This document shows, piece by piece, positions 5,037 through 62,444 of a stretch of 64,000 bases of DNA; the stretch's first letter is position 1; every line of letters begins with the position of its first letter. This DNA comes from Prosthecobacter vanneervenii (lineage in GTDB: Bacteria; Verrucomicrobiota; Verrucomicrobiia; Verrucomicrobiales; Verrucomicrobiaceae). The stretch lies in NCBI RefSeq assembly GCF_014203095.1, contig NZ_JACHIG010000005.1, forward strand, positions 124,001 through 188,000, written 5' to 3'. A program made the translations under genes and the position numbers. The notes beneath the pieces are model-generated. The model did no database searches, was not told the origin of the DNA, and saw nothing but the letters and a program-made list of their open reading frames with translations.

Positions 5037-5139
5037 GGCTTCTACCGGGCGCTGTATCGCTGAGTTGAGCAGCGGCGTGGCATTTTCAAGTATTCGCAGA
5101 TGATTAGCATCTCGCAGGCATGTGTCAGTCACCGCCATG

Positions 5140-8261: not shown

Positions 8262-8325
8262 TTGAATTTTACACCTTGGGAAGAAATGCTTGTCTCCTGA
8301 TGGAACGAATGTTTCTCTTACCTAA

Positions 8326-8970: not shown

Positions 8971-9015
8971 CGCACCTTGAAACACGACAGTAGAAACAAC
9001 AATCCACAGCACGCC

Positions 9016-9537: not shown

Positions 9538-9540
9538 GCC

Positions 9541-32408: not shown

Positions 32409-35400
32409 TCAATCCTCTGCCATGCGACGGCGGCGGCGCATGCAGAGGCCGAACAGGCCAAGCATGAGCAGAAGCAGGCGGGCCGGTTCAGGCACCACCA
32501 CGATGATGCCGTTGCTGGCAAAAAGCTGGGAATTAAATGCCAGTCCGCCCCCGAGGACCACACCGGTGTAGTCAAAGCTGGTGGCACCGGAGGCGCTGCT
32601 GAGGCTGGCCCAGTCAAGCAGGTTAAACACATCCCCATAGACGGGTGTGTAGCCATTCAGGAAGGTGGAGTCGATCTTGACCGTGCCATCGATCACCGGC
32701 GCATTGGCTCCGTTGATAACGATGTGGTCATGCAGACTCGTGCTGGCGCTTTCCCAGGTGGCGATGATGGAGGGGCTGAGAGTATCCAGAGAGCTTTCAT
32801 TGCCCTGGATGGAAGCAGCATCATTGAGTGATGCACCACCCAGTTGCATGAGCAGGGTACCGCCGCTGTTGATGGTGAGGTTCCCACCCACAGTGAGCAA
32901 TCCTTCAACTGCAACACCCGGTGCCAATGTGCCTCCGCTGTTGATGTTCAGATTTCCGCCCACCACTCCCGTGCCACCCAGCGTGCCTGCATTGACGTTG
33001 ATGGCCCCGGAGTTGGTGTTGATGGCGTTCAGCAGCAGCGTACCCGCGCCTGTTTTGCTGATGTCTCCAGCACCGGTGATGACGCTGCTGACGGTCGTGG
33101 TGGTGCTGGCCGCCGTCTCGAATGTGGCACCGCTTGCGCCCGCGGTGATGCCGCGGTTGCTGGAGATGCTGACGTCAGCTGTGGTCTGCAGCGTTCCCCC
33201 GTTAATGGAGAGCTGATCCGCCACCACAGAAGCCGGAGCTGCACCAAGGTTGTTGTCTGCCGAGATGCTGAGCGTGCCGGCATTTACCGCCGTCTTTCCA
33301 GCGTAAGTGTTGGCCCCTGAGAAGACCACAGTACCTGCGCCGGTTTTCGTCACACCATCCGTGTCAGCAGTTCCGGAGATGACGGCGCTGACGGTGAGCT
33401 CCTGCGTGGTGCCCGTGCTGTCGCCCACATTAAAGGTGCGGGTGGCACCACCGAGATTCACCTTGCCGGAGAGAGACGCGGCACCGGGATTGCTGGTGGC
33501 ATCATAGGTCACGTTGCCAAGCAGGGTCAGGGTGCCCGCACCTGTCTGCACCACACCCAGGCTGCCAGCGGCACCTGCATACGTCAGGGAGGCGATGGCG
33601 TCGTTGTTGCCATTGAGATCCAGCGTCACGGTGCTGGAGGCAGTGGTGGAAGCCACGGTGACCGCTGTGGTGTCCGGAATCACATTGCTGGCCGCCGTGG
33701 TGATGCCGCCCGCATTGATGGTAGTGCTGCCGCTGTAGCTATTGGGTCCGCCCAAAGTGAGGGTGCCCGTGCCCACCTTGACGAGGTTGAGGGTGGAGCC
33801 CACGTTGTTGGTGATGGCACCACCGAAAGCGGTGCTGGTGGAATCGCCTATAATGAGTGTCACGGTGCCGCTGGTGGCGGAGGTGGTGATCAGGCCACCC
33901 GTGGTGCTGCTGCTGCCGGAGAGAGAGGCAAAGGTGACCGTGCTGCCGCCGCCATTGATGTCCAGTGTGGCACCAGCAAGCACAGACACAGCGGAGAGTA
34001 TCGGAATGGCGTTGGTGGCTCCATATTTCAGCAGACCGCCGCTTACGATTGTGGCTCCCGTATAGTCATTGCCAGCACCGGAGAGCACCAGAGTGCCATC
34101 GCCAGCCTTGGTCAGACCAGACCCTGCACCGCTGGTGAGCTTGCCGCTGAGGGTGGCCGTCACCTGCGGACTGGAGACGGTGATGGTACGTGCTGCCGTG
34201 CCGAGATTCACCGTGCCGCTGAGGGTCAGGTTGTGCGTGCTGGCGGTACCACCAAAGGTGAAGCCTCCATTCACCGTCACAGCGTTTCCAATGACGCGCG
34301 CCGCAGTGCCAGCCTGGATGGTGGTGCCATCCGCAATCGTCAGCGTGCCCGTGCCAAGCGGACCGCTGGTGATGGCGGGAGGTGTGCCTGTGGTGGCGGC
34401 GTCGAGGATGAGAGTACCCGCATTCAGATTGAATCCGGTGGTCCAGTTGCTGCTGCCACTGTTGAGCACCAGGGAGCCGGAGCCCGTCTTGGAGATGGCT
34501 CCGGTCATGCCCGCATTCTGGGTGATGGCGGCGCTGATGATGAGTCCCATCGGAGACAGGCCGGAGACATTGATCACCGGATTGGCATTGCTGAATTCCA
34601 AGGACGCAAACTGCGTGCCGGATGTGTAGGTGCCGCTAATCGTGGGCGTGGTGCCCAGGTTGTCATTCACCACTGTGATGGCATTGGCTGCACTCAGGAC
34701 AACCCTGGCGGTGGTGCCAGCTCCAGGAGCACCCAGTGCAAGCAGAGGCGTGGTGGTGCCGCCCATGTCATTGAAGACAATGCTGTTGAAGGTGTTGGTG
34801 CCGCTGGCCGTGTAATTCGGGAAGGTCAGCGTGGCGCCGCCATTGAGCGTGATGACATTTGAAGAGTCAATCAGGCCATAGACTGTGGTGCTGCCACCGC
34901 TGAAGTTCACCGCTGCGTTGTTGATGGTAAGACCGCCCGCCGGGATCACGGTGCCAGCCGTGGTGGCTGTGATGGATGTGGTGGCGCTGTTGATGATAGT
35001 GCCGCCTGTGTAGCTCTGATTCGGGTTTGGTAGAACGAATGTACCGCCATTGGCCGTGGCCAGTACCAGGGTGACTGGATTTCCATTATCAACCACACGT
35101 GCATTGAGCGTGAGCGCAGCCTGATTGTTGTAGAGATACAGGGTCTGCGAGGCCGTGCCTGTAGTGACACGTCCGGAATCAAGCGTGCCACCAAGGGAGA
35201 AGTTGGCATTGCCGGTTTTCAGGAAGCCGCCGCTGGTGAGCGTGAGCAGATCCGTGGCAGTGGTCCAGGTCAGCGGGGTGGCTGACTGGGTGCTGTTGAT
35301 CACCAGCGAGTTGACGGTGTAGGCGGCGCTGATGTTGAAATTGATGCTGTTGGTCGTGGTGACGTACTTAACGTTGTTGGTCGCACCAGCACCGCTCAGG

Positions 35401-38400
35401 TTGGTCGTGGCGGTGATGGTGCTGTTGGTGTTGTAGTTGGCAAAGCCTGCACCCGTGTCTCCCAGCACCCCCACACCCAGCCCACCAGCGGCAGCCTGTG
35501 TGGGCAGGTAGGTCAGGTAGTCTGTGCCTTGGTAGATGGCCCAGCCGCCGATGATGCTGTTGATCAGGGTCGGAGCGGTGGTGAAAACCATCGTCGGTCC
35601 CTGGCCCCCTTCCACGCTCAGCGGGCTGCGGCCGATCTGGAAGCTGCCATTGACGACGTAGAAGATGGAGCTGTTCAGCTGCGTCAGGCTTGGGGAGGTG
35701 ATGTTGAAACCGCCGCCGCGTTCCGGCGTGGCAAAGTTGAAGATATTGACACCGGCGTTCAGAGTGATTGTGCCAAAGGTGTTGTTGATCTCCCCTTCCT
35801 GACGCGGGAGGATGGAGATGGTGCCCCCGGTCAGCGTGATGGGCGCCGAGCCAAAGCGGTTCAGCACCGAAGAGATGCCGGTGTCATTCCACGTGAGGGT
35901 GGAATAATTGACATTGATGGCCGAGGTGTTCTGGATGGAGGCGCTGTCCTGGAGCTGCAGAGTACCGGCCCGCACCGTGGTGGATCCCGTGTAGGTGGCC
36001 GCACTGGTGAGCGTCCATGTGGCATTGCCAGTCTTGTCCACATTGAAGTTGTTGCCGCCAGTGCCGCCGAGGACGCCTGCAAAGGTGGTGCTGCCGGTCT
36101 GGGCAGTGAACAGCGTGGCCGTGGTGGCGCTGGTGTTCACGATGGAGCCGCCTGAGTTAGGCAGGAGGTTGTTGTTCGTGACCGTGATCTGCCGCACGGC
36201 CTGGTTGTAGCCGTTGAGGTCAAAGGTGCCCGCATTGACCACGAGATCTGCCAGCGTGGCAACGGTGGCCGTGGGTGCGACGAGCAGCGTGTTTGCGCCG
36301 GCATTGAGCTTCAGTGTGCCGGCATTCACGAAAGTAGCTCCGGTATTGTAGCTGTAGCCGCTGAGTGTCAGCATGCCGTCGTCTGCTTTGACAATGCCGC
36401 CGCTGCCCAGGATGGAGCTGCTGATGGCAAGGTCTCCAAGAGTGTGCAGGATCAGCAGTGAGCCGCCTGCGGTGAGCGCGCCATTGCTGATGCCCACATT
36501 GCCAACGTTTGCCACGAGTGCTCCGCTGGTGATGGTCAGTGTGTTGAGCGTGCCAGCAATGCCGTAGTCAAGGCCCAGCGGGCTGCTGGTGCCATTCATG
36601 AGGTTGCCATTGGAAATCAGCCCGCCGCCACTGTCCAGCGTGAGGCTGTTGACCGTTGTGGCCTGATAGAGCTGTGTCAAAGCCCCGGTCCTGACGTTGG
36701 CCGTGGCAGGCACACTAAAGTTAAAGCGACCCACCGCCGAGCTGGTGGCCGAGCTGCCAAAGGTGAGTGTGTTAGTTCCCAGGGCATTGACAAGACTGTT
36801 GGCGGTGATGCCATTGACCGCCGCCACCAGGCTCTGCCCCGTGACAAGACCGGTGATGTCTGAGAATTGAACCACGTTGCTGCCATTGCTGGTGACACCT
36901 GCCACCACCGCCCCGAGACCGCTGCCCGTGCTAGGAAGCGTCTGGTACTCAGCCGCAGTCAGCAGACGGATTCCGGTGCTGGTCACGCTCGTGACGAGGC
37001 CGCCGGTCGTGTTTGTGCTGTCGATGCCGATAAGATCCGGACGGATGCTCATGGTGACCGTGCCTGGGCCGCCACCGCCACCAGTCAGATTGGCAGCTGC
37101 AGGCACAATATTCACCGATCCAGCCCCAATCGGACCGCCAAGAATCGCTGAACCTGCATTGATGACCCCCGTGCCACGGTTGCCCGTGTTGGACACGCTA
37201 AGTGCGGAGATGTTGATGACCGTGCGGTTCGAGCTGCCAGTCAGATTCCACTGGCTCTGGCCTTCAAGGAATGTCACGGTGCCCAGGCTTTCTGAGACAT
37301 TCGATGCACTGCTGCCGATGTAATTAAGCACGCCACCGCGCATACTCAGCGTGCGGCCACCACTGATGCCCGTGGCTCCACCGAGACGGTCATTGAGCAC
37401 ATTGACACTGTTGTCGAGCGTGAGAGTGCCGCCTTCATCCAGCAGCACGGCGCTGAATCCGGACTTGGCAGTGACACCGCTCAGAATGACGCTGCCCGCG
37501 TTGATGGCCAGATTGCCGATGAGCTGAGTGCTGTTGTCCGCCGTGAGCGTCCAGCTGCCAGAGCCGGCCTTGGTGACGTTCAGCAGTCCGCTGGTGAAGT
37601 CGCTCGTGAATATGCCGTCAAATGCGGCATTCGTATTGTCAAAGCCCAGGACGAGCGTCCCTCCCGAGTTGGGGCTGAAGTTGCGGATCGTACCTGAACC
37701 AGTGACAGACCCGACGGCGAGGTTGGTCTGGCCGCGCATGTCCAGCGTAGCGCCGGATTCCACGGTGATGGCCATGCGTGTGTAGGAGGTTGTTCCTGTC
37801 AGCACCAAGGTGCCCGTGATGACGTCCACATTGACGAGGGTGTTGGGATTGCCCTGCCCGCCGATCGCCAGCACGCCAGCACCAAGCTTCTGAAGATTGG
37901 TGGTGCCCCCCACGAAATTCGTGTTCAGAGCCAGACCGATCTGGCTGTTGCCGCTGACCACGCTGGCTGCCACCGTGTCAACCGTGATAGTGTGGGTGCC
38001 GGTCATGTTCACATTCCCGGTGAGCAAAGGAATGACTCCGAGCTGCTGCAGGTTGCTGGCAGAAATATTGCCCGTCAGCGTGAGCACGCCTGTGCCAGTC
38101 TCCACGCGGGCTCCTTCATTGCCATTGCTGCCGCCATCGCTGGTGAAAACGAGATTGGCCACGGTGTCATTGTAGCCGTTCAGTGCCCACATGCCGCCAC
38201 CGTTGACGGTCACAGTGGCACTGTCTGCGATCTGATCGCTGAACCCGCGATTAATCACACGAGATGCAGTGATCGGGGCGGAGTCTGACAAGGCACCGTT
38301 GCTTGTTGTGGTGCCGCCAGAGATGACGAGGTTTCCGGTGATGGCATTGCCGCTGCCTGTGCCGTTGCTAAGATTAAGGATGACACCATTCACATAGGTG

Positions 38401-41400: not shown

Positions 41401-44400
41401 CCATTCAGATCCAGCGTGGCTCCGGTGGCAAAGACAGCGCTCAAAGAGGCATTGGTGGCCGTGGCCGCGTCTGAAATCTCCACCGTGGTGCCATTCACAA
41501 TGCGTGTGATGAAGGCACCCTGAGGGATGCCAGTGCCGATGACCAGCTCGCCTACACTGCGACCGGCCGTGGTGGACATGGTCACCTGAGTGGAGCCGGA
41601 AGTGATTCCAGAAGTGACGGTGGCACTGCTGCTCGCAATGGTGGTGGTGCCGCTGGTCAGAGCATTGGCTCCAGCGACGACAAGCGTGCCCGCCTGGATG
41701 GTGAGACCTCCGGAGAAGGCGCTGCTGTTCCCCAAGATAAGGCTGCCGGAGCCCGTCTTGACGAATCCATTTCCACTATCACTGACTCCTCCGATGAGGT
41801 AGAGCATGCCGGCTCCGCTGGTGGAATTGAGCCCCACATTGAGAATCGTATTGGAGCCGATGGTGGTGGTGCCTGTGACACCAAACCATCCAGTGCCAAT
41901 GCTGCCGCCCGTTCCGCTCACAATGCTGAGGATGGAGGGAGTGGCTGCACTGCCATTACCGATCGAAAGTGTGTCGATCGTGGAGTTCAGCACAGAGCCA
42001 AGGGTGTCCACGGTGGCCCTGTCACCACCGGCCAGATTCCAGCCGCCGGTGAGCTGAGCCGCAGTGAGATAGCCGTTACCAGAAGTGGCCAGGCTGAGTC
42101 CCGCAGAATACAGCCTGGAGGCGGGTATGGCCTGGAAATTGCCCATCGTGGTGTTTGCCCCCTGGTCACTCACCGTATCCGGTCCGGAGTAGAGCACATG
42201 GAAACCGCCGGCGTTGGTGGAACCGGAGGCATTTTGCTGCTTGAACACGATGCTGTGATAGCCCGCGCTGAGAAACACCGTGGTGCCGGTGGCAGACTCA
42301 GCCGCGCCACCAGTGGCGTTTGAGATGATGGCCTTGCCATCAATGTAAAGGATGGAGCTGTCGTCAGCCGCCGTGCGGAAGGTGTAGCTGCCACCCGTCA
42401 CGATCTGCAGATAGCCGTTCTGCACGGAGATGCCGCCGTTGAAGTTGGTGCTGGTGACTCCGATGGGATGAACAAAACCGCCCATGTCACCAAGGCCCAC
42501 CTGGGCAAATGTGCCGGAGGCGCCGGCGCCTGATGCGATGGCAGAATTGATGGCGACCGAGGTGGCAAACTGGTAGTAGCTGGCCGAGAGACCGCCAGAC
42601 ACATAATCTCCCGGAAGTGTGCTGAGCGTGGCTGCCTGCGGCACCACCGGATTCAGCCCCGTAAGGATGCTGCCATTGGCCAGCGGGGTCGTGGTATTGA
42701 TGGTGGGGATCTCAGGGAAGATGACCGTACCAAGACCAACGTTCACCGGTTTGACCGATCCATAATTGAAGACGTAGATCGTCGTGCCCAGCGCAGGGTT
42801 CAGCCGTGCGGCGCCAGCGCCCGTGGTGTTGACATTAAGCAGGCGCAGCTGGTAGCCGTTTGCGCTGCTGACATCCAATGTCTGCCCGCCTGCGATGTTC
42901 AGGTTGGCCACTTCCATCACGTTATTGGTGTTGGCACCGTTGTTGCCAATCGTCAGACCAGCTCCGCTGATGGCGCCGGCAAGCGTGATGTCATTGTTGT
43001 AGGTGATGACGGTGCCGTTACCACCGCCGTTGTTGAGCAGGCTGAGAAGTGCATTGCTGCTGTTGATCAAGGCGGCACCCCCTGGGATCGGCGAGGCAAA
43101 GCCGCCATTCAGGCCCGAGAGCACGAGATTGCCTCCATTGAGGGTAATGCCGCCCTGGAAGGTGTTGTTGTTCCCCAGGGTCAGAGTTCCCTGCCCTGCT
43201 TTGATAAGCGCGGAGGTGTTGTCTGTTCCGGAGATGATGCCGTTCATTGTCAGGTTGGTCAGCAACATGTCCACCGTAATAGTGGTGGCACCGCTGGGCA
43301 GCGTCGTGGCCCCGTTGAGCGTCAGGCTCTGGTTCCCCTTCATGGAGAAGTTCCCAGCAGTCACATAGTCATTGTTGACGATGTTTGCAGAGGAGGATGA
43401 GGTCAGGAAGGTGCCTGCACTGAGGGTCAGCACTCCGGTGCCGAGCGGCCCGCTGGAGAAGATGCTGGCCACACCAGTGACAGAGTCGCGGGAGGTCACA
43501 TTGGTGCTGGCACCGATGGCGATGCCACCCGCAGTGAGATTGACACCGCCGGTGAAGGTGCTCTGGCCGCTGAGCTGCAGCAGCCCTGTGCCATCCTTGA
43601 TGATGCCTTCGGAGCCGGTTCCCACCACGTTTCCTGAGACATTGAGATTTGGCAGCAGGTAGTTCAGGCTTTCACCGTTCCACTGCACCGGGTCCACGGT
43701 GAAGGTGCGGGTGCTGCCGCCGAGATTGATGCTGCCGGAGCCCGTGGTGCTGATGGTGGCTACGGAGCCCAGGTTCTGCCCGCTGGCCTGCACGTTGCCC
43801 CCGAGGATGAGGTTGCCCGTGCCGGTGGTCACTGTGGGGGAATCACCACCGTTGTTGTTGAAGACGAGGCCTCCCACGCGCTGGTTGAACCCATTCAGGT
43901 CCAGCGTGGCTCCACCCATAATCGTGACAGTGGCTGTGTTTTTGATCTGGCTGGCAGCCCCAAGCACCACACGGGTGTTGCGGTCGGAGAAGACGCCCGG
44001 ATTGCTGCTGTAGCCGCCTGCAATTGTTACATCTCCCGTGCCTGTGGCGGTGGTGCTGACTCCGTCCGCGCCCGTGGTGTTGAGCACCACACGGCCGGAA
44101 TTGACGTAAGTACCCCCCGTGTAGGTGTTCACACCAGTGATAAAAACATCATTCGTGGCCGCAAGAGTGCCGCGGCCGTTGTTGCCATCGATCACCAGCG
44201 TCACTGCACCACCAGCGGAGTTGTTCGTGATGTTGGCGGAGAAGGTGACGTCCGCATTACCGGTATTGTCCGCCTGGTTGTTAAGCCAGCTCAGGGCATG
44301 CAGGTAGAGGTCCGCCGGACTGGAGGTGGTGCCGGCCGTCAGGTTGCCATTGACGATGCTGATGCTGTTGGCCGAGGCCGTAGTAGCGATGGGGGATGCG

Positions 44401-50400: not shown

Positions 50401-53400
50401 AGGGTGCCGGCGGTGTTCGGCATCACGCCGCTGCCTGTCAGATTTCCCAGATACTGCGAGCTGCCGTTGAGATCCACCGTGGCACCAATGCCGATGTTGA
50501 GGCTGTTCACTGCAGGGAAGATGGCGTTCAGCCCGGCATTCAGTTGCAGAGTGCCTCCCATCACGTTGGTGGTGCTGTTGAAGAAGCTGGTGCTTTCCAG
50601 GCTCAGCACACCATCACCCACCTTCGTGATCTGGCCATTGATCACGGTTGAGGTGAGATGCAGAGTTGTGCCGCCCTGCACCTGGATGTAGCCAGACTGC
50701 CCGCCCAGATTGAGCTGGGAAACAGCGATCGTATTGTCACCGCCGGTGCTGATGACGGAGCCGGTGCTCAGAGTGAGCACATTATTGGCAGTGCTGGTGA
50801 TGGAGAGGCCGCTGCCATTGATCTTCATGGCGTTCAACGTGCGCGAGGCCGTGATGTTGGCCGTGCTCGTCACGTTCATCGTGTCCGTGGAGGCGGCGGT
50901 GTTCAGGTTGTTGCTGTTGTTGTAGGCGCTGAAGACCACCACGCCATTGGTGCTGTCATAGGCGGCAAAATTGTTGGCCAGGTAGATGCGCGGCAGAATC
51001 GCATTGGTGAAGGTGCTGCCCCCCTGCTGATAGGTGGTGATCTTGACCTTGTTCGTGCTGCCCAGCCCGCTGATGCCGCTGAGATCCCAGGAGGAGCCTG
51101 AGTTGGCAAAATTGACCGTGGCAAAGGACAGTGTGTTGCTGCCCGCACCTGACATGCTCAGGGTGCCCATGATGTTGTTCACCGTGGCGTTGCCCATCGT
51201 TTCCGTGGTGCCGGCGCTGCTGCCCACAAGGTTGAGCGCACCGCCGTTGAAGGTGAACGCACGCCCGGCCACGCGGCCGCTGGCATTGTTGCCGCCGCTG
51301 CTGTCCAGCACCAGCGTACCGCCTGCGTTCAACGTAATGCCTGAGGCAGAATTGACGCTGCCGCTGCTACCGCTGATGGTGACCGTGCCACGATTGATCG
51401 TCAAGGCACCCGCAAAAGTGTTGGTCCCGGAAAGGTTCAGCGCATTGCCCTGAAACTGCAACGCGGAAGCCGTGGCGGTGCCGCCGTTCACTATGGCGCT
51501 GGTGATGTTGGTCGTGCCGGAACCAGCAATGACCATGGTGCGGTTGGTGGCCGCCTCCGCAAGATTGACGCCGCCGGAGAGTGTCAGCACTGCTGTGCCG
51601 CTGAGGTCGTTCTGCAGCACACGCGTACCGCCGTTGTTCGTGAGGGCCGCGCCAAACTCAATGCTGTTCGTACCATTGATGACGGCGGGGTCGCCAGCAA
51701 TCGTCACCGGATTGATCACCTTGTTGGTGCCAGTGAGATCCAAGGTCGATGTGAGGACGCCGCCATTAAGTATAACGGCGTTCGAGGCGGATGTCCCAAG
51801 AGCCTTGGCATTTCCTACAACCAGAGTGCCCTGACCGAGCAAGATGCCGCCAGTAAGCGTGGTCGCGGCATTCAGGGTAAATGATGCTGTATTTGCGATG
51901 CGGATGTCGAAACGCGTCAGTGACGTGGACACAAGGGTGTTGTCCTTGATGTCACCATTCCACACCGTCGAGCCATTGCCTCGGACGTTGAATGTGCGGG
52001 TGGCATTAGCCCCGTTTTGGAAGTTGAGGAAGTTGCCGTTGATGGTCAGCACTGCGCCGCTGTCGAGATTGTTGCTGAAGGTCTGGTCATTGCCTCCCGA
52101 ATTTTTGATCACATCGTTATTGATCGTGATGGAATTGGAGCCGCTGAAAACGGCCGAGGAGTTGTTGTTAAGGACTACGGGCTGAGAAAGCGTCAAGCCC
52201 CCAGGATCAGTGGCAAAGATGCCGCCATTGGACATCAGAAGACCACCAAACACAAGCTGCGCCCCGGCAGGAATAGTGCGGGATGCGGAAATGGTGAAGG
52301 TTGTTGCACTGGTAATGCTGGTGATGACGTCACCATAAGCGATGCCGGTGCCATTGACGTTCATGCCCACGACCAGCCCCGCGGTAGTACCGCTGGAAAG
52401 CGTGATGGTGCCGGAGTTGCTCACGGCGGCGGATACCAGGCCGGCAGAGACGCCGATGCCGTTCGCGCCCAGAGAATCAGAGGTCCCAATGCCCAGCAGG
52501 CCGCCGTCCGCACGGGTGCCGCCCGTATAGGTATTCGCTGCATTCAAAATCCAGACACCTCCATCCGCCTTGAGCAGACGCAGCGAGCCCACACCTCCAA
52601 AGGGGGTGGTCAGCCCCGCACCATTGTCTGCGAGCACCGACGTAATCATGTTGCCATCAGTGTTCGTACCGCGGATTTCCAGAGTCTTGTCCCCTCCCGT
52701 GGTCACCACGGATGTGGCGGTCGTATTCACCACATTGGTGAGGATGATCGGACCGCTGCCGCTGGAATCAATGCGCCGGGTGCCGGTCGTGCCGATCAGA
52801 TCGATCTCACGTGTCGTCGTCTCACCTGCCCCCACATACATCAGACTGACGGTGGTGTTGGTGCCCGGGTTACCCAGTTGCAGCGCGCCGCCTGAGACGT
52901 TGGTGCCAAAGCTGGAGGAGGTGGCACCCGCAGCACCGATGGATGTCGCAAAGACTGCTTCCTGACGAATGACGGTCTTGCCGCTGTAGGTATTGGCATC
53001 TCCCAGGATGAGGCTGCCGGAGCCCGTTTTCCCCAGGCCGCCAGTGCCGCCGATCACTCCTGAGACGGTGGCGAAGTCGAGGTTGGTGCTGCCATTGTCA
53101 TCCACCTGGATCTGGCGGAATTCACCCGCCAGCACTGATGCTGTAATGCTCGTTCCAGATGCCGTTGCATTCTGGCTGATGGTAAAGGTGCTCGTTCCGG
53201 TGATGGCGCTGATGAAGGAGCCCGCTGGAATATTAGTGCCTGTCACCGTCTGTCCCACAGTCAGTCCTGTGGTGTTTCCCGTGGTGACAGTGATGGCATT
53301 GCTGCCGTTTGTGGTCGTCACGGTCAGCGAGGCAGCACTGCCAGCAGGGGCCAGGTTGAAATTCCCTTTGATCTCCACATCGGCGATCGAGGTGGCATTG

Positions 53401-56400
53401 TTCAGGATAAGCGCACCTGCCCCCAGGAAGCCCGCGGTCGAGCCCCAGGTAGGTGTGCCCAGCCCGCTAAAGTCCACGGTCAGCTTGGACGAGCCAGAGG
53501 AGAAGCCCCCGTTGGCCGTGGCCGCAAACTGGAACTGCCCGGCTCCGCTGCCGAGAGCACGGTTAAAGGTCCCGGAGGTCTGATACACACCACCATTGAG
53601 CAAGAGATTGCTGCTGCCGGAGAGCCCGAAACCATCCACCGCCTGTAGCGCACCGCCGTTGATCGAGGTCGTCCCAGAGTAGGTGTTGGCCGTGGCGGGA
53701 TTGAGAATCCACAGGCCGGAGTTGGTCTTGGTCAGGGAGAGCGCCCCTCCACCATTCGGATTGTTGATGAGATGGATGTCGATCTCATTGTCCCCCTGGG
53801 AGTCACCATCCAGCGTCAGCGTGCGGGCCCCTGTGCCGCTGAAAGCCAGATCTGCTGTGTTGTTGAAGATCAATGTGGCGTTGTTGTTCGCACGCGAAGC
53901 CGAAAGGTTTCCATAGCTGCCGTAGGATGCGATTGTGCCATTCCCTGCCAGGGTGAAAAGACGATTGATGCTTACCGAAGGCGACTGCGTGGCCGTGACC
54001 GCACCGCCGGAGTTGGTGCCCACATAGCGCAGAGCTCCACCGTTGAGGACAAGGCTGGCGGCGTTGGTCGCATCACTGGTGGCATCCCCCATGCCGATGC
54101 CGCTGGCCACACCGATGTCAGCGATGTTGGGAATGTCGAGGTTGCCTCCCAGAATCGTCACGGATCCCTTGAAGGTGCTAGCGCCTGTAAGACTGACCGT
54201 TCCGCTTCCAGCCTTCACGAGAGAAACCGTCGCCGAGGCACCATCTTGAATCAGGCCGGTGAAAACGCCGCCGGAGTTGTTGTTGCCAAAGCGCAGGGCG
54301 GCCGTTCCGCTCGCGGCACTGTTGGTGATGATGCCCGCTCCATTGAGCGCATTCACCGAGTTGTTGCCAGAGGCCACGGTTCCCACGTTCACTCCATTGA
54401 GGTCAAAGGTGGCCCCCTGCCGGATGGTCAGGTTGATGTTGGTGGCCCCCAGCAGACCAGAGCCAGCCATCTGCAAAGTACCTTCGTTGACGGTGACGGT
54501 GCCTGTTTCAGCATTCGCACCGCTCAGCACCAGAGTGCCCTGGCCATTTTTGGTCAGACCGCCGGTCGTCGTGGATGTAATCGGTGCAGAAATCAGCAGC
54601 GAATCCGTCAGGCCATCCACACGCACCACCAGATCCTGGTTGCCGTTGGTCGTTACGCCAGTGCCGCTGATCGTGCCTGCACCGCCCGTCTGCAAAATGC
54701 CCCCGGAGGTGTTGCTGCCTACATTGATGGTTAGAAGCCCGGTCTGCGATACGGTCTGGCTGCCCAGAATCTTCAGGGAACTGATCGTCAGCGCCCCGGT
54801 GCTGGTGTTGGCGGTGACGAGGTTGTGGCTGGTGGCCGTGAGACCAGCGCCCGCGATCACAAAGCCCGCATCCGTGCCATACACGGGTGCCACCAGCACC
54901 CCGCCGTTAGAGCGCGCAAAATCAGACCCGTTGAAATAGATATGCCCATTGCCCGGCAGCGTCGTGGCGGTGCTAGTCGCGACACCAGTCAGTGTCACCG
55001 TGCCGTTGCCAATGACATTCAGGCCCGTGCCGATGGAAGGTGTGGCCAGAGAAGAAAAGATCAGCCCGGTGGCACCACCACCAGCGGTGATTTTGATGGT
55101 CCCGGCACCCGCCGTCATGGTCAGAGCACCCAGAGTTTCTGTGATGGCCCCGCCACTGAAGCCAAGGTATTCAAAGGTGCCACCCGCCACCTGGTTGGTG
55201 TTCAGCGGGTCGGCATTGAAAACAAGCGCAGACGCATTGTTGATTACATCCGAGCCATTGCCGCTGCCTGCGGTCGCTTTGATCTGCAGGGTGCCTCCTG
55301 CAACTGTGACGCTGCCTGTAAAGCCGGTCACGGCCCCAAATGTCAGCGCCGTGCTGGATGTCACAGCCGTGGTGATCGTGTTGTTGATGGTGATGGTGCT
55401 GCCGCTGATCGCCGTGATGATGGATCCAGAAGGAATGTTGGTGCCTGAAACCGTCTGTCCCACCACCAGACCCGTCGTGCTGGAAACCGTGAAGGTGTTG
55501 CTTTGGGCCGCTCCACCACCAGTCGTCGTCACACCAGTTGCTGGCGTGGTCACAAAGTTGCTGGCAGCAGGATCATAGAGCCAGGTACCGGAGCCGATCT
55601 TGACCAGTGAGGTTTTGTTGGTCGTGGTATTGTCCTGAATGACGCCCTGGATTTCATTTTGCAGGGTGCTGGTGCCACCGAGGTAGAAGTTTTTGCTTCC
55701 TCCACCCGTGGCCGCGATGTTGTTGGCAATCACCAGCGCTGTGGGTGCCGAGCCCGACTGGTTGGCCAGAATGATGCCCGAGCCGGTCGTGCCAGTCAGG
55801 TTGACCGCCTTGGTCACGATTTCACCAGCCCCGGTGCCGGAAGCCCCCAGGTAGCTGAGAGCGCCGCTGTTAAGCTGCAGGGCGCCGCTGGCACCACTGT
55901 TGATGGCTCCGAATGAATTGATCGCCACGGTCCCGGCGTTGACATTGAAGCTGCCAAGGAAATTGCTCGCCGTCCCCCTGATGGTCAGCGTTCCGATGCC
56001 CGCCTTGGTCACCGCATGTGCGGCTCCTGAGGCCGTGAGATTACCTGTAAGCACCGTGTCTCCATTTCCCTGGATGGTCAGAGTGCGTGCCGTGGTGTCT
56101 GTCTGGTTCCAAAGGCTGGAGGTGGCCAGCGTGAGCAGGCCGTTGGAGTTGTTTTCAATGAGGGCGTTGTTGGCACCGCCCTGCCCCATGATGCCCGTGG
56201 CGGAGTTGTTCAGCCCCAGCAGGGTCACGTTAAATCCATCTCGTCCAGTAATGCGGAAGTTGGTGTTGGTGCCAGTGGCGCGTGTTTCCCCGAAGGTCAC
56301 GGTTTTGTTGATTGCGCTGCCATCGCTGGCACGGCTGACAAAGATGCCCGTGTTCGTATTGTCACGGTTGAAGATCTTTCTCGTCGAGAAGTCCGCATTG

Positions 56401-57494
56401 CCCACGCCAGGAGTGTCCGTGCGCACTTCCAGGATGCCGTTGTTGAGGTCCACAGCCTGGGTGCTGGTGTTGTTGCCCAGAGCTGTGTTGGTGGACACAC
56501 GCACGGTGCCGGAATCAATGCGGACGGACTCGCCAAAATTGTTGTTCGCATTCTGCAGCCAGAGCGTCGTACCATAGACATTGCCCGATTTGGCAAAACG
56601 GTCGTTGGCCACTTCATACCCTGTCACCGGGCCGGAGATGATGAAGTTGCCATTGCCAAGCAGGGTCTGCGTGGTGCCGTTGCCCAGCTGCACGCTGCCT
56701 GAAATCGTCGTGACACCATAAGCTGAGATAATATTCCCCTGCGATCCTGTGCCGCCGAGCACGACGTTTCCAGAGATCGTGTTGTTGCCCACGCTGATCA
56801 GCGCGCCGCCGTTGTTCACTGCGCCTGGACCACGTCCGGCGAGGCTGATGTCGCGGCTGAGTGTCATGCCAGCCAGGCCTCCTTGCAGCACCAAGCTGCC
56901 GCCGCTGAAGCCCGGATTCCCCGTATTGGCCAGACCATTGACAGAAATCACCTTGGTGCCCGCACCAAGCTGAGCCTGGTCAGTAATGACAACAGCACCA
57001 CCGTTGATGACCACATCTCCCGTGAAGGTATTGGCAGCTCCCAGCTTCAGCGTGCCATTGCCGGTTTTTGTCAGTCCGGATGTACCCGCGATGACGGAAT
57101 CAATCTCAGCGCGCTTCTGCGGGGCCACGTAGATGACCGGAGAAGGATTCAGTCCAGCCACTGAGCTCAGCGTCAGCACATCACCGGTGATGACAAAACC
57201 ATCCGAGCCGAAAACAAGCCCCCCTGCCGTTTGCGGTCCGCTTAATGTCACAACGCCTGGCGGGCTGAAAAATGCGGCCACATCACCATTTGTCCACGTA
57301 ACGGCATCAAGCAGACTGCTGGTGGTGGACCACTGCGCTGTCGTCTGATCCCAGGGGCCGTCGTATCCCTGATAGTAGAGCGTGGCACCTTGTGCCTGCA
57401 TGGCCCAGAGAGGAAGAATCACTGCCATTGCGGTGGCGACAGGACGCTTAAAACGACGACGCAATGTGTCCAAGAGCACGCTGGATTTCTTCAT
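32409..57494 (-). CDS. Giant autotransporter-associated beta-strand repeat protein with PEP-CTERM tail
   Basis: About 8361 aa in one open frame of 25 kb from the ATG at 57494. An upstream in-frame start at 57608 lacks a signal-like N-terminus. MKKSSVLLDTLRRRFKRP plus a hydrophobic stretch ending AMQAQGA is a signal peptide. The body is Thr/Gly/Ser/Asn/Ala-rich and made of PATR repeats of the form GLTKTGxGTLxLxGxNTYTGxT (about 38 recognised by eye), which build beta-helix passengers. Inserted are eight modules of about 60 aa, about eight W-A/F-A-T-Y segments and one PA14-like domain. The C-terminus is a PEP-CTERM signal, not a beta-barrel, so it is probably anchored or released by an exosortase system. 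A role in the outer layer or adhesion is inferred. Confidence 0.88.
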   Translation of the reverse strand: MKKSSVLLDTLRRRFKRPVATAMAVILPLWAMQAQGATLYYQGYDGPWDQTTAQWSTTSSLLDAVTWTNGDVAAFFSPPGVVTLSGPQTAGGLVFGSDGFVITGDVLTLSSVAGLNPSPVIYVAPQKRAEIDSVIAGTSGLTKTGNGTLKLGAANTFTGDVVINGGAVVITDQAQLGAGTKVISVNGLANTGNPGFSGGSLVLQGGLAGMTLSRDISLAGRGPGAVNNGGALISVGNNTISGNVVLGGTGSQGNIISAYGVTTISGSVQLGNGTTQTLLGNGNFIISGPVTGYEVANDRFAKSGNVYGTTLWLQNANNNFGESVRIDSGTVRVSTNTALGNNTSTQAVDLNNGILEVRTDTPGVGNADFSTRKIFNRDNTNTGIFVSRASDGSAINKTVTFGETRATGTNTNFRITGRDGFNVTLLGLNNSATGIMGQGGANNALIENNSNGLLTLATSSLWNQTDTTARTLTIQGNGDTVLTGNLTASGAAHAVTKAGIGTLTIRGTASNFLGSFNVNAGTVAINSFGAINSGASGALQLNSGALSYLGASGTGAGEIVTKAVNLTGTTGSGIILANQSGSAPTALVIANNIAATGGGSKNFYLGGTSTLQNEIQGVIQDNTTTNKTSLVKIGSGTWLYDPAASNFVTTPATGVTTTGGGAAQSNTFTVSSTTGLVVGQTVSGTNIPSGSIITAISGSTITINNTITTAVTSSTALTFGAVTGFTGSVTVAGGTLQIKATAGSGNGSDVINNASALVFNADPLNTNQVAGGTFEYLGFSGGAITETLGALTMTAGAGTIKITAGGGATGLIFSSLATPSIGTGLNVIGNGTVTLTGVATSTATTLPGNGHIYFNGSDFARSNGGVLVAPVYGTDAGFVIAGAGLTATSHNLVTANTSTGALTISSLKILGSQTVSQTGLLTINVGSNTSGGILQTGGAGTISGTGVTTNGNQDLVVRVDGLTDSLLISAPITSTTTGGLTKNGQGTLVLSGANAETGTVTVNEGTLQMAGSGLLGATNINLTIRQGATFDLNGVNVGTVASGNNSVNALNGAGIITNSAASGTAALRFGNNNSGGVFTGLIQDGASATVSLVKAGSGTVSLTGASTFKGSVTILGGNLDIPNIADIGVASGIGMGDATSDATNAASLVLNGGALRYVGTNSGGAVTATQSPSVSINRLFTLAGNGTIASYGSYGNLSASRANNNATLIFNNTADLAFSGTGARTLTLDGDSQGDNEIDIHLINNPNGGGALSLTKTNSGLWILNPATANTYSGTTSINGGALQAVDGFGLSGSSNLLLNGGVYQTSGTFNRALGSGAGQFQFAATANGGFSSGSSKLTVDFSGLGTPTWGSTAGFLGAGALILNNATSIADVEIKGNFNLAPAGSAASLTVTTTNGSNAITVTTGNTTGLTVGQTVTGTNIPAGSFISAITGTSTFTISQNATASGTSITASVLAGEFRQIQVDDNGSTNLDFATVSGVIGGTGGLGKTGSGSLILGDANTYSGKTVIRQEAVFATSIGAAGATSSSFGTNVSGGALQLGNPGTNTTVSLMYVGAGETTTREIDLIGTTGTRRIDSSGSGPIILTNVVNTTATSVVTTGGDKTLEIRGTNTDGNMITSVLADNGAGLTTPFGGVGSLRLLKADGGVWILNAANTYTGGTRADGGLLGIGTSDSLGANGIGVSAGLVSAAVSNSGTITLSSGTTAGLVVGMNVNGTGIAYGDVITSITSATTFTISASRTIPAGAQLVFGGLLMSNGGIFATDPGGLTLSQPVVLNNNSSAVFSGSNSITINNDVIKNSGGNDQTFSNNLDSGAVLTINGNFLNFQNGANATRTFNVRGNGSTVWNGDIKDNTLVSTSLTRFDIRIANTASFTLNAATTLTGGILLGQGTLVVGNAKALGTSASNAVILNGGVLTSTLDLTGTNKVINPVTIAGDPAVINGTNSIEFGAALTNNGGTRVLQNDLSGTAVLTLSGGVNLAEAATNRTMVIAGSGTTNITSAIVNGGTATASALQFQGNALNLSGTNTFAGALTINRGTVTISGSSGSVNSASGITLNAGGTLVLDSSGGNNASGRVAGRAFTFNGGALNLVGSSAGTTETMGNATVNNIMGTLSMSGAGSNTLSFATVNFANSGSSWDLSGISGLGSTNKVKITTYQQGGSTFTNAILPRIYLANNFAAYDSTNGVVVFSAYNNSNNLNTAASTDTMNVTSTANITASRTLNAMKINGSGLSITSTANNVLTLSTGSVISTGGDNTIAVSQLNLGGQSGYIQVQGGTTLHLTSTVINGQITKVGDGVLSLESTSFFNSTTNVMGGTLQLNAGLNAIFPAVNSLNIGIGATVDLNGSSQYLGNLTGSGVMPNTAGTLTNTSLTASTFVTNGGGTFGGIISGAINLGRVGGNTLTLETAQTYTGRTWLLGGTTQLENDATLQSTSAIDINGATLVVTSNTSLQTQNNDRIGDGIAITLRGGSLQVNGRVNTVATETLGAITLAQGANSIQAATGGTGTAGAFSSIDLTIASLTRAAGTTVNFQNSTALGSIGNVPRIVFTTAPTTYGDGVLGAWAISNASDYAAYNATNGVGTVGNGGFAGYSPDFGSGNITGIGTLATAPLTTTLSGTTTTGMLRIAGNFTNNIAFTNNSSVLNLELGGLLRSNNVFDTSIGTSAVRGTLTAGGTETSGTRELVVYLNATGNPTFGGGATTSGSAVITMSSTVGLQPGMTITNAGLPAGTTIVSVDSLTQATVSIPATATATGQTFTGGSFVSGATTAGSAVVTMNSTTGIAPGMTLTGTGIPAGTYVVSVDSPTQVTLSQAATAAGSALTFTVGVSNMIINSVIADNGFGNSVSLVKSGTGVLNLSASNTYTGGTVVDQGTLNLIGNGVVIPAGGLTINNAAVTMLTNSGQIAAANDVTLVGSSTLTLAGGLGFNNTLKSITFNNNGGSGTPTVSIPTNSILTLTSSTPVTVLNSNAATVPTISGGFLALASGANTFSVQGPTLDGLLYTQIGSSLSISSVITGTGSSILKTDTGLLQLSGQNTFDGGMTVQSGGLILSANSTSTVPNSLVSGPLGIGSVSFASGTTLLADNNSRTVANAMSFADAPIFNNTGTNLVTLTLNGALTFATQTTTGLVVNIPTPFLNVVLGGPIANIGTITSIGGTGANTISKTGTGNITGLNLTGLGSTVPINIGALSNGAFSILHDGDGTGSFQTINLGTITWEPAVTGTALALTIGRAGTQLYYPQAVNKIIAPAALVSSQLGNGINLTNNNNYGLLLSDNIVFNTVSSNQGPTFTVANGSTSLQLDGLILNGLLTGGPTGASAVVLTKAGSGVLTLGNAGNSFGGGGSIIDITAGLIAASSDGALGNAGNIVRLSTNNLGFGFRATGTFTTSRTFNLNSAAAEFEVTQGNTLTLNTAFTFASANNALRKYDLGTLVLTQPETGWNGVMFVQQGILRVSNGAQLGNASSTTASTATTGASGQAVLTPAGGTANYGVGQLVTGAGIPADTIINSITATTITLSQNITSANPTITSSAGGVVLGNVGAALELTGGVTAADSIFVNASNNATSAGINGAGAIRSTAGVNTVSGQIIIATSTADNQMRAVTLAADAGSTLNITGGVLAQVGTAGTNRHSWVGLGGAGTINITTNGFTNTGTLGIFQLNKYGTGTLNLQVANAFSGRDIIVKQGTLSMNGAGTFGALGTGQGSTRAVIVHDAATLTLDNTGTNVSNRLGNATLSFQGSDFVLLGSSSATTTENTTGTLTFNAGATVFTLDAGTGQQLNFTTGAVTRNAGSTLLIRADGFGSAAGANVATIQGSGTAYAFTGQLGGTGSTNKSILPWAFGNNLSLSGDALGFVTADSAASGANTGTNRLRLLSASEQVTGITAPVTLNAFENLNLSTAVSGATTYNILNAWQVNSLQLSSGGSLSIDSHLRAFTIESGGLLALAGNGGISGNGYLTTLSNRELIIYNAGDLNIGVAIAGTSGGLTKSGSGKLTLTAGNVFTGTVTLNDGTLKLDGGDQTILPNQALQLLGGYLDLNGNVQNFNSVQAQTGSLAVNDGFAVNTGGVVINTSASQATLGITTGNVSFRGSIGSSNPAESNIAVVRSQSAGATTDWNLYSNNTYTGPTLLNGGRTQLIDGGALSGTSSIELSNSTLLVSASNTSTEPVSLTDRINDAAMITLNGAMLQWRSRAALYTTEQLGAVKIGYASSIIDFAEPGTGVNQSDVTMASLIQVAGQHGTVRFLNIDGNLSALQRLFISNINGVATTNLGDGLTNNIIGGWATFEREFATYTPSEGLAGLTNNGYAGYSPNSIFTATATDNIRILLPVAGSTTTLTADTTLYTLNLQANTGATGNSTLDLGGKTLTVASGGLIASPIATTASANSISIVNGNLTAGTTSSPADLYLHALSWLNNQADNTGNADVTFSANITNNSAGGAVTLVIDGNNGRGTLAATNDVFITGVNTYTGGTYVNSGRVVLNTTGADGVSTTATGTGDVTIAGGYSSNPGVFSDRNTRVVLGAASQIKNTATVTIMGGATLDLNGFNQRVGGLVFNNNGGDSPTVTTGTGNLILGGNVQASGQNLGSVATISTTGSGSINLGGSTRTFTVDPVQWNGESLNYLLPNLNVSGNVVGTGSEGIIKDGTGLLQLSGQSTFTGGVNLTAGGIAIGASTNVTSRDSVTGVASIFSSGPLGTGVLTLSAGTFLTSSSSANIVNNDYVTAGNFSMKGNQSLTLNGATTLPSGATTITVDMLLTNLTMNGIISGTDNTSALIKAGQGTLTLGNNNTFQGGITLNGGNLVLSGLNGGFASPIPGGAALINSSNALLSLLNNGGGNGTVITYNNDITLAGAISGAGLTIGNNGANTNNVMEVANLNIAGGQTLDVSSANGYQLRLLNVNTTGAGAARLNPALGTTIYVFNYGSVKPVNVGLGTVIFPEIPTINTTTPLANGSILTGLNPVVPQAATLSTLPGDYVSGGLSASYYQFATSVAINSAIASGAGASGTFAQVGLGDMGGFVHPIGVTSTNFNGGISVQNGYLQIVTGGSYTFRTAADDSSILYIDGKAIISNATGGAAESATGTTVFLSAGYHSIVFKQQNASGSTNAGGFHVLYSGPDTVSDQGANTTMGNFQAIPASRLYSAGLSLATSGNGYLTAAQLTGGWNLAGGDRATVDTLGSVLNSTIDTLSIGNGSAATPSILSIVSGTGGSIGTGWFGVTGTTTIGSNTILNVGLNSTSGAGMLYLIGGVSDSGNGFVKTGSGSLILGNSSAFSGGLTIQAGTLVVAGANALTSGTTTIASSSATVTSGITSGSTQVTMSTTAGRSVGELVIGTGIPQGAFITRIVNGTTVEISDAATATNASLSAVFATGATLDLNGTTGVTGSIVLNGTGQVNPTTGTGTSLTTGSNVNNMLGGANAALWNSSPNAASVVGAITINSNNVQIGGQGDITLSGAITASASNPLTKISGNTLTLTADNSTTLLGAIAVNYGTLKVGNANALGATTAGTTVASGAVLDLNGFSIAEPLTVSGTGLTNFGLAVNSLGSLINTSTTAATLSGAVTLAANASIGSSGFNPLSGVTEGDIQVDGVISGNFTLTKVGTAKLIITNGGNTFDATNVNQGTVIVRGNGRLGDAGTVTINGSGYSSGVMGSQLILDNTTTASSTRLGGRPVALTGGLLEIDGNSTTAVNETLATDQSISINNLYNIITLVNNGANVRASTTGSGTLTRVSNGTVFIRGTNLGSAAPAANNTNIMLATAPTFTGQSSSTNGSKNIRVLSWVVADPSATGDGTSANATFATYDATTGIRPLNLTTEMDTTFTANNNIRLIGALTSGADATVFSNTLVNSLTFESGGSLTINALRNVTVDSGGILAKASATISGTGSLTATTANNLSIFTMGSGTILEVDVPLGGLYGAASTGGLTKSGDGQLMLNAQNNYIGETRLNLGTLQIGSAAPANNPLFFRFTEAPAPTTTATTLRADNFVVQQGSVFDLNGHNQVVGSLASTVTQPGGGGIITNMAAGFANFHTLMTASFTFAGSINDNLNFVRSGGNTLTLTYNSNYSGSTLLMGGVTTLQDQGRLSGGGTITINRAVLRWDDSGIQALSNRLSTSSYAMNANSSNIILNGGALYYVGRGGANTVATFGDLTLASNASFVQVNVGNSNVGTATMSFGSLIRQGTASVTFSTANGGLGDNPFITFATAPTLTNGIIGAWATVITSTPSSGAAFATYDPATGVRPLASYMQTSSFATSTANDNLLLRDGTGIAVTAGGAAVNTLTWNGLTVARTLTFTNANDVLTLTAGGLLGGTENFSKTIGTTALPGVITTGAPQLYISNAENLLQINSVITGNFDLITTGLGRADLAPEITFGNANTYVGTTYVNGVILNLSNGTGSGNAITGNLVISGGTTTSNGALSDSAPITASRVINRGFSDQIADSATVTVNGGGMWALNGYNDTVANLVFTSDGGSNGNEGARVETGTGVLTLTGNISASNLQQLGVIPLLTGNVNMTGTHTITVDTVAASVVSGNSQIGLALNTNFVGGTTNLQKLGAGVLAIGGQGNPNTLVNVDVITGTLVLTGTTSYTRMAITVESGATLDMRGQTNLAVGSVTGSGTIRNFSPNSGGTLVLGFDNTNAAFDGIFTSDFTSGLLNVTKAGSGSWTLTADNSTQLIGNLAINAGSVILSGVTAKSGFSAVLLDEGGTLTLDNSVNVLNDRLGGATGISGGRTLSMRGGVLNYIGSSASNVSESLGTVTFLEGQSQWNLTGSSNRTVINISALSVSNTGNRGTGVINAGSAILGGPIGAGSVNIVPAAANLTGGGGGPGTVTMSIRPDLIGIDSTNTTGGLVTSVTSTGIRLLTAAEYQTLPSTGSGLGAVVAGVTSNGSNVVQFSDITGLVTGQSLVAAVNGITANSLVNALGTNTLTFGSSATSSAVGRFNFSVPATANVRTGALTQLYQATTVNSLTLDSGGGLISNGNLMNGTSSPLGLDYGIAGTLNTLTITSGALVANVGNVGISNGALTAGGSLLILHTLGDLAISSSILGSGGIVKADDGMLTLSGYSYNTGATFVNAGTLKLNAGANTLLVAPTATVATLADLVVNAGTFDLNGYNQAVRQITVTNNNLLPNSGGSIVNTSATTATLFTAQTGSTTFAGVLGGTGGNNFNVDKTGNATWTLTSAATYTGSTTVRAGTLQLQDSASIQNTSAINVNYSTLTWNDTGISSVLNRFGSAPITLTGGTISILPRQEGEINNTFGTITLNAGVNIFNFATPERGGGFNITSPSLTQLNSSIFYVVNGSFQIGRSPLSVEGGQGPTMVFTTAPTLINSIIGGWAIYQGTDYLTYLPTQAAAGGLGVGVLGDTGAGFANYNTNSTITATTNLSGAGATNNVKYVTTTNSINFNISAAYTVNSLVINSTQSATPLTWTTATDLLTLTSGGFLKTGNANFSLGGTLDSGRVTTGTASQTLYLYNNQAALTLNARVVDNGNPVTLVLATANGGTFVLPNPNQSYTGGTIINSATTSITATTAGTVIPAGGLTINNAAVNFSGGSTTVYGLIDSSNVITLNGGATLTFPNYTASGTNTFNSIVFNDMGGTTTPLLALGAPGAGTTARVVLSAANAITVVNDNLGTTPTISGTYTSGTQFASLEFSNANPVINVSGLSPMGLIISAAITQNAGMTGAISKTGSGSLVLNSGSSNWTTGFNLNAGTLILDAATTGTPPAITSGPLGTGTLTIADGTTIQAGTAARVIGNAVTVNGGFTFGGTASTHNLTLSGTVNLGTAARTITVSSPQVTATLSGKLTSGAGSGLTKAGDGTLVLSGAGNDYTGATIVSGGLLKYGATNAIPILSAVSVLAGATLDINGGGSTVTFASLSGSSSTTGGLITTSATSGTVTLIIGDSTSTAFGGAITNNVGSTLNLVKVGTGTLTLGGPNSYSGSTTINAGGITTAASNVIPDTTAVTVASTTASSTVTLDLNGNNDAIASLTYAGAAGSLGVVQTGAGTLTLLGNVTYDATSNPGAASLSGKVNLGGATRTFNVGDSTGTTQELTVSAVISGTADTDGVTKTGAGTVVFSGANTYAGKTAVNAGTLSISADNNLGAAPASVVADQLSINGGTLQTTADVSISSNRGITAGASGATFETAASTTTTVSSVITGAGDISKTGAGTLLLNAINTNSGAINVNAGTLGGTGVVGGNLNINSGGTLAPGVAVEGLLTVGGNLTINSGGTLLMQLGGASLNDAASIQGNESSLDTLSPSIIATWESASTSLHDHIVINGANAPVIDGTVKIDSTFLNGYTPVYGDVFNLLDWASLSSASGATSFDYTGVVLGGGLAFNSQLFASNGIIVVVPEPARLLLLMLGLFGLCMRRRRRMAED
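32412..32495 (-). other. PEP-CTERM sorting signal of the giant protein
   Basis: The last 28 residues read VPEPARLLLLMLGLFGL, then CMRRRRRMAED: a VPEP motif, one hydrophobic helix and an Arg-rich end. This is the tripartite signal processed by exosortases. No exosortase gene was found in the window. Confidence 0.9.
35524..51010 (-). repeat. Recurrent W-A / F-A-T-Y segment in the giant protein
   Basis: A segment of 40-60 residues of the form FTTAPTLxNGIIGxWAxxxxxDFATYxxxxGVRPL occurs at about 35.53, 38.90, 40.15, 44.68, 45.99, 49.82 and 50.96 kb, with a decayed version at about 36.98 kb. Each copy follows a stretch of the form GGALxYxGxxxxTVxTFGxxTLxxGxxxxxVxxG and closes a unit of several PATR repeats, so the protein has a higher-order period on top of the single repeats. 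Confidence 0.65.
36717..55505 (-). repeat. Eight copies of a module of about 60 residues inside the giant protein
   Basis: Copies lie at about 55336-55505, 53145-53310, 52248-52424, 49232-49396, 49033-49200, 46925-47095, 41430-41612 and 36717-36900. The shared pattern is GSxxITxSSTTGLxVGQxVxGTGIPxGTxIxxIxxxTxITxSxxAT. The most characteristic part is GLxVGQxVxGTxIPxG, which is not part of the PATR consensus. Two copies are directly adjacent (49.0-49.4 kb) and the rest are scattered. The first copies at the N-terminal side resemble each other more than the last one (36.7 kb), which is degenerate and lacks the IPxG turn. Confidence 0.8.
42105..42605 (-). other. PA14-like domain inside the giant protein
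   Basis: Residues of about 4964-5130 differ from the surrounding repeats. They read GLSASYYQFAT, then GSYTFRTAADDSSILYIDGK, LSAGYHSIVFKQQN and FHVLYSGPD, the order and spacing of a PA14 domain, a beta-barrel fold that often binds carbohydrate. It is the only such insert seen. Confidence 0.75.
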
Positions 57495-57818
57495 CGGTTG
57501 GTTGAGTGTATGGGGGCTGCGGGAGGCGGTTGGAGCGCGATCAATGCAGGGCGGGAAATCTGCAATTAATTGGCTGAAGTGATCTTCATCTTGTCCTAAC
57601 CCCCTCATTCAGAGCCATTGCCGAATGGCTTGTTGTTGTGTAAACAGGACCCGAACCCGGACTGGCTCGAAACTTTAATTCGAATAAAGAAATAACTGTA
57701 GCGCCTCTGCACCGATGACTTGTCATGCCATGGCTCGCAACTTCAGCGGGGCTTTGGAACTCAGCATACAACCGCATCCACAGTTGCGGGCTCGCCCCGG
57801 CTCAACACTTTCCCAGAC
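57495..57818. other. Divergent intergenic region between the giant gene and dnaG
   Basis: 324 bases with no gene; it must hold the promoters of both directions. The clearest structure is a 7-bp inverted repeat, AGCCATT-GCCG-AATGGCT (57613-57630). A lower-GC patch with a TCGAA/TTCGA repeat lies near 57668-57684. No convincing -35/-10 pair was found. Confidence 0.3.
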
Positions 57819-61579: not shown

Positions 61580-61641
61580 GTAGCACGGGCAATCCTGCCC
61601 GTGTTGGGCGCGCTCTTTGCGGGCAGGATTGCCCGCACTAC
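61580..61641. repeat. REPIN between rpoD and the RAYT gene
   Basis: The left REP is GTAG (61580-61583), C, ACGGGCA-ATCC-TGCCCGT (61585-61602). The right REP is the inverse: GCGGGCA-GGAT-TGCCCGC (61619-61636), A, CTAC (61638-61641), after a 16-base spacer. It is the same family as the pair at 22468. The right GTAG head, read on the minus strand, contains the TAG stop of the transposase gene. Confidence 0.9.
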
Positions 61642-62282: not shown

Positions 62283-62294
62283 GAATGATCTGAA

Positions 62295-62317
62295 GTAGCA
62301 CGGGCAATCCTGCCCGT
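62295..62317 (+). repeat. REP element upstream of the RAYT gene
   Basis: GTAG (62295-62298), C, then ACGGGCA-ATCC-TGCCCGT (62300-62317), identical in head, stem and loop to the REP at 61580. It lies 12 bases before the RAYT start, on the opposite strand. An inverse partner lies at 62445. Confidence 0.9.
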
Positions 62318-62444
62318 AAAGCCCGGCCCATCGCATTCAGTAGCAGCGCCCCTCAATATCGCGCCTGCCTCCAATGCTCAAAACGACTGCTCACTTAGAA
62401 GTCAGCTTTAACACAGGCAAACTTGCCAGTGTAGAGCACTCTCT

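Follow-up and report, generated by a model that had tools for sequence, protein, structure and literature searches.

PEP-CTERM substrates of exosortases, PATR repeats and huge proteins of PVC bacteria have each been described separately (PMC1569441, PMC4960237, PMC3048395, PMC12188702, PMC9977779, PMC11573180, and PMC12057145). Verrucomicrobium spinosum is credited with 65 PEP-CTERM proteins (Haft 2006; PMC1569441), and the abstract of that study ascribes to such substrates little homology to known proteins. PMC12188702 presents a polysaccharide locus as the usual setting of an exosortase and describes the outer-membrane passage of PEP-CTERM proteins as unclear, suggesting that they travel with polysaccharide via a Wza-type pore. 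In autotransporters, PATR repeats are thought to aid efficient passenger secretion (Doyle 2015, cited in PMC9977779). By title and abstract, a giant protein uniting PATR repeats with a PEP-CTERM signal was not found in partial listings of the open-licence literature, which comprise neither subscription papers nor preprints; PMC11892184 has little bearing on this question.

The window analyzed here, a stretch of 64,000 nucleotides from Prosthecobacter vanneervenii, encodes such a protein. It resembles the substrates of EpsH-type exosortases in its signal-peptide-like start, in its C-terminal PEP motif, helix, and basic cluster, and in the presence of exosortase genes in the genome, one of them within a polysaccharide locus, but differs from the PEP-CTERM substrates of that abstract in being a giant array of a named autotransporter repeat. 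With classical (type Va) PATR autotransporters such as IcsA and Ssp it shares the repeat, a mature chain devoid of cysteine and a composition rich in Gly, Thr, Ala, Ser, and Asn, whereas it lacks their C-terminal barrel, carries some thirty repeats and ends in an exosortase tail. Like the huge proteins of the PVC group, as described in PMC11573180 and PMC12057145, it exceeds 5000 residues in a PVC host and is likely extracellular; it is set apart from them by its repeat type, its tail, and the lack of any Pfam match to a degradative domain at E ≤ 1. We favor, with reasonable though far from full confidence, its interpretation as an autotransporter-like, cysteine-free passenger that would use an exosortase route instead of a barrel.

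The open frame extends over positions 32409-57608 of the minus strand (8399 codons from its first ATG) with no internal stop. The ATG at 57494 appears to be a better start than the first one, because it opens a signal-peptide-like segment that aligns by eye with the starts of homologues; it yields a protein of 8361 residues (32409..57494, minus strand), whose N-terminal 37 residues (57384..57494, minus strand; MKKSSVLLDTLRRRFKRPV...QAQGA) resemble a signal peptide by eye and in comparison with the homologues. No promoter emerged when 57400-57900 was scanned for a consensus. The earlier note had described an intact 25-kb gene for an 8361-residue protein, which agrees with this frame and start, and its placement of the product among very large bacterial proteins holds at 8361 to 8399 residues, a size above 5000 that is not unique in the genome or the genus. 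By eye, a response regulator (31458..32147, plus strand) converges on the gene, with a sensor kinase (29870-31420) beside it, and a dnaG primase frame (57720..59690, plus strand; likely ATG near 57819) diverges from it. A frame at 61638-62336 of the window resembles, also by eye, a REP-associated (Y1) transposase.

A chance open frame was rejected, since an alternative frame across 32412-45208 contains 165 stops. That the gene is an assembly artefact or is decaying would be suggested by its richness in repeats, by the draft state of the assembly (33 contigs) and by a relative broken into two frames in the genome G021, itself a draft of ∼700 contigs. In the latter, at G021:C521, about 8379-36423, a frame of 6852 codons stops without a tail and the tail profile matches the adjacent frame of 2500 codons, which would reflect either a broken gene or a draft error. 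Repeat collapse was nevertheless rejected as unlikely, because the gene holds no direct exact repeat of at least 25 bases (in direct orientation, the only one scanned, a single 20-base repeat was found); Tandem Repeats Finder reported one short array, and the window is free of N. Decay was rejected on account of long frames in other species and of purifying selection. Over 3694 columns of an alignment with a relative, amino acid identity is 53.6% and fourfold sites agree at 32.9%, against 27.7% expected at saturation; with fourfold sites thus near saturation, the gene is under purifying selection. Together, these data make an artefact or a decaying gene very improbable.

Homologues of the first 500 residues occur in 27 of the 37 genomes searched, including 22 of 23 from further members of the genus, and the protein is colinear with a 7482-residue protein of G019 (5643 residues aligned, 46% identity). 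The 8512-codon giant of G011 is flanked by the same genes, with dnaG and rpoD at one end and the kinase/regulator pair at the opposite end, yet it aligns to only 29% of the window's protein, so the position of the locus is better kept than the middle of the sequence. The kinase/regulator pair borders a giant gene in G004 as well. A relative of the N terminus (44% identity) lies on a metagenome-assembled contig labelled Akkermansia muciniphila, a label that may be wrong. Viral contigs scanned with the C-terminal 599 residues yielded no relative.

The PATR character claimed in the earlier note was confirmed by profile searches of the two halves of the protein, in which TIGR02601 matched 15 and 14 stretches and PF12951 matched 15 and 16. 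An HMM that was first built from the protein itself and then refined with its relatives included resolved 33 units with a median spacing of ∼250 residues, which together span 32979..57068 (minus strand). The NCBIfam name of TIGR02601, 'beta strand repeat protein', suggests that curators are aware of this repeat outside autotransporters. The protein also has an N-terminal cap (57060..57368, minus strand; ORF residues 81-183), matched at E 2e-22 by an HMM built from 13 further giants, of which 12 showed a PEP tail. Part of a PA14 domain was matched by PF07691 at 29.6 bits (cut-off, 24) over ORF residues ∼5064-5137 (42198..42419, minus strand), and this part weakly matches the solved PA14 chain 6qdi (E 0.0036). 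There are also a module of ∼54 residues in nine copies and another of ∼70 residues in six. PATR, the single PA14, and these two modules are what was found of the four module types that had been proposed, which may have been others. The computed mass is 825 kDa and the pI 4.7. The mature chain contains no cysteine, 15% Gly, and 15% Thr; from residue 39 on, the sole cysteine (8389) lies inside the C-terminal hydrophobic helix.

The sequence would suit a beta-solenoid, the probable fold as judged from the repeat family and from a sequence match to the autotransporter IcsA (5ke1, E 1e-5), the one solved protein found to be related in sequence to the C-terminal part, rather than from structure models. 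Single-sequence AF2 predictions gave no firm fold for the C-terminal 599 residues (mean pLDDT 50.5), in which ten-residue blocks at ORF residues ∼8131-8230 reached 63 to 81 and a helix was placed at the last residues with low confidence, and a useless model for the N-terminal 600 residues (mean pLDDT 39.6). Foldseek returned nothing at E ≤ 0.001 for the C-terminal model; autotransporter passengers lead the list, the best at E 0.08, for a model whose mean pLDDT is 50.

Consistently with the PEP-CTERM end proposed earlier, TIGR02595 matched the C terminus at 21.2 bits, above its cut-off of 16. The signal (32424..32495, minus strand) consists of VPEP, the hydrophobic helix with cysteine 8389, and RRRRR. 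It is preceded by a module (GDVFNLLDW ... LFASNGIIV; 32499..32681, minus strand) that is conserved in the PEP-tailed paralogues of alignment A1. A spurious match over an ordinary membrane anchor could be argued from PF07589, which scored 20.2 bits and so missed its 20.7-bit cut-off by 0.5. Against this stand the TIGR02595 score, 34 TIGR02595 matches in the same genome, an exosortase in every genome of the genus surveyed, and the invariance of VPEP and RRRR in the nine tails aligned among the genome's 15, although other tails vary (KRRR, RRRK, and RRKR as shorter arginine runs in three further tails of this genome, and VPEA in the G001 giant). We regard a spurious tail as highly unlikely. The claim that the protein has no beta-barrel was likewise upheld: profile searches of both halves reported no barrel family at E ≤ 1, and the genome-wide barrel search at the same threshold matched eight other places and never the giant's frame. 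A barrel in cis was thus rejected.

The genome holds at least 19 PATR frames by PF12951 (150 of 500 candidates scored), of which 15 end in PEP-CTERM by TIGR02595, two in a PF03797 barrel, two in neither, and none in both. Five of the other PEP-tailed frames encode 7937 to 11633 residues. The barrel-tailed frames are 5528 and about 2067 to 2074 codons long, and those with neither tail about 4691 to 4693 and 1191 codons; a twentieth frame, of 1500 codons and ending in a barrel, qualifies as PATR by our own HMM alone. The cap HMM matches the 5528-codon barrel-tailed paralogue (G000:C21) at E 1.7e-9, more weakly than the giant, and also the tailless 4691-codon frame; it does not match the barrel-tailed frames of 2067 and 1500 codons. 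By its cap sequence, at least one barrel-tailed passenger thus has a relationship to the PEP-tailed giants that goes further than the repeats. This frame, which has a related cap and the same repeats, is a related passenger in its classical form, since it ends in a PF03797 barrel.

The 4691-residue frame without PEP-CTERM or barrel (G000:C1:6745-about 20820) has an end that is SBBP-repeat-like by eye. On the same contig, a 4089-residue frame (G000:C1:172731-185000) carries a PF03797 barrel and no PATR match by our HMM. PEP-tailed PATR frames also lie in tandem, at G000:C1:223300-239041, on G008:C6, and on G004:C30, which suggests gene duplication.

In the genus, 39 genomes were surveyed (those of the relatives as drafts), 27 of them of good quality, with a tail profile (A1) built from nine of the 15 tails above. 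TIGR02602 detected an exosortase in all 39 (37 over cut-off), and A1 matched 35 of 39 genomes and all 27 of good quality, whereas PF03797 barrels were found in 21 of 39 and in 17 of the 27. Sixteen genomes had the tail and no barrel at the thresholds used. Among the matches listed, a frame of 5000 codons or more bears the tail profile in 19 genomes; eight of these are free of PF03797 at E ≤ 1e-8 and of TIGR01414 at E ≤ 1e-3, the latter being the less sensitive profile (three barrels in the window's own genome, against seven for PF03797 at E ≤ 1e-8). Six of the eight are ≥90% complete with ≤5% contamination; one of the others is 87% complete and the other has 8% contamination. To judge from these eight genomes, the giants probably leave the cell by a means other than an autotransporter barrel. 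The two tails also differ in the length of the frames that bear them: 46 of the best 150 (by E-value) of 273 tail matches reach 5000 codons, compared with two of 79 barrel matches (Fisher p 9e-8, a value that ignores kinship between genomes, with short frames included among the 79 irrespective of PATR, which was checked in fetched frames alone). The longest tail-profile frames among the matches listed, 14657 codons in G002:C102 and 14376 in G001:C83, come from two species. Across the phylum, the profile matched at least 39 of 145 genomes (at most 23 candidates scored per genome), and the largest frame outside the genus among the candidates scored has 5363 codons and belongs to another genus of the same family. 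The PEP tail is thus wider than the genus, and giant size seems largely a feature of the genus within this sample.

Export in trans, whether by the autotransporter barrel of another gene or by a transporter of the two-partner type (ShlB/TpsB), would find candidates in the window's own genome, with its seven PF03797 matches (E ≤ 1e-8) and three ShlB matches, but against it stand the eight relatives whose PEP-tailed frames reach 5000 codons and in which neither PF03797 nor TIGR01414 matched at the thresholds above. ShlB-type pores were surveyed in this genome alone. One ShlB gene adjoins a large candidate partner of its own, and genes that look ExbD-like by eye lie near the other two. At E ≤ 1, profile searches of the giant gave no two-partner secretion (TPS) domain, and by eye its neighbors are dnaG and the kinase/regulator pair rather than TpsB. 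These observations make a barrel in trans less likely, and we consider it improbable, if less firmly so for ShlB-type pores. The absence of a barrel from the protein, the exosortase in 39 of 39 genomes, and the eight barrel-free genomes support the earlier proposal that these proteins leave by a route different from that of classical autotransporters.

The exosortase route that we favor instead rests in part on the genes that could serve it. TIGR02602 gave two matches over cut-off in the window's own genome, one more at E 7.5e-25 and one weak (three at E ≤ 1e-10). One of these exosortase genes adjoins an EpsI-like gene; a flippase, glycosyltransferases and WecG/TagA are encoded in the same locus (10 selected frames per scan of the exosortase loci). 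In G000:C2, an XrtU-type exosortase lies beside a choice-of-anchor E protein (8186-10542 of that locus), possibly as a dedicated pair. Counted against the exosortase route are the six Poly_export (Wza-type) matches of the genome, all of them off the contig of the polysaccharide-linked exosortase, as well as the sub-threshold PF07589 score and the tailless end of the 6852-codon G021 frame. The literature is also mixed. When cyanoexosortase B was deleted in Nostoc, motility, biofilm, and scytonemin were lost and most of the extracellular PEP-CTERM proteins detected became less abundant, although only one decrease was significant after correction and two proteins rose (PMC12188702); Akkermansia produces PEP-CTERM proteins, nine of 23 detected by mass spectrometry, and these were more abundant in the intracellular fractions than in those of the outer membrane (PMC4960237).

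The Akkermansia fractions, together with the unclear outer-membrane exit acknowledged in PMC12188702, would also suit a giant retained in the periplasm or inner membrane, where it would act as a scaffold of the envelope or stalk and PEP-CTERM would be no more than a membrane anchor. The sequence relative IcsA is, however, a surface passenger, and one exosortase lies beside polysaccharide genes. Moreover, an ordinary periplasm would poorly accommodate a rod that measures well over 100 nm. A scaffold of this kind is therefore unlikely, if less so than a barrel in trans.

For the favored exosortase route, a sequence of steps can be envisaged. The N-terminal signal peptide would direct Sec export; the C-terminal VPEP, helix, and RRRRR would then retain the chain in the inner membrane, where an EpsH-type exosortase would presumably cut it. 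Having no barrel of its own, the released chain would cross the outer membrane by another way, perhaps together with exopolysaccharide. Outside, the PATR coils could form a fibre. A beta-solenoid accommodates 20 to 25 residues per 0.48-nm coil, so that 8299 residues would give a length of very roughly 160 to 200 nm. Such a fibre may structure the matrix or bind surfaces, and its PA14 domain may bind glycans. We infer a placement in or on the extracellular polysaccharide matrix, together with the outer-membrane passage, anchoring, and function outlined here; the giant as a cell-surface fibre or adhesin, as the earlier note suggested, would fit this scheme.

A broader and more tentative idea is that these are passengers with interchangeable exits, in which related caps and the same repeats would leave the cell through a fused barrel or else, in the case of giants, by release through an exosortase and export together with polysaccharide. 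The barrel-free route might lift a limit on size and so permit genus-wide matrix fibres of up to ∼14,600 residues, which may be covalently joined to exopolysaccharide. Since PATR occurs on barrel-less proteins and in genomes without a detected barrel, its role is probably independent of the barrel. With many substrates of varied size and both kinds of tail on related passengers, this genus renders outer-membrane exit testable, and the further giants that it carries do the same for the question of how giants leave the cell.
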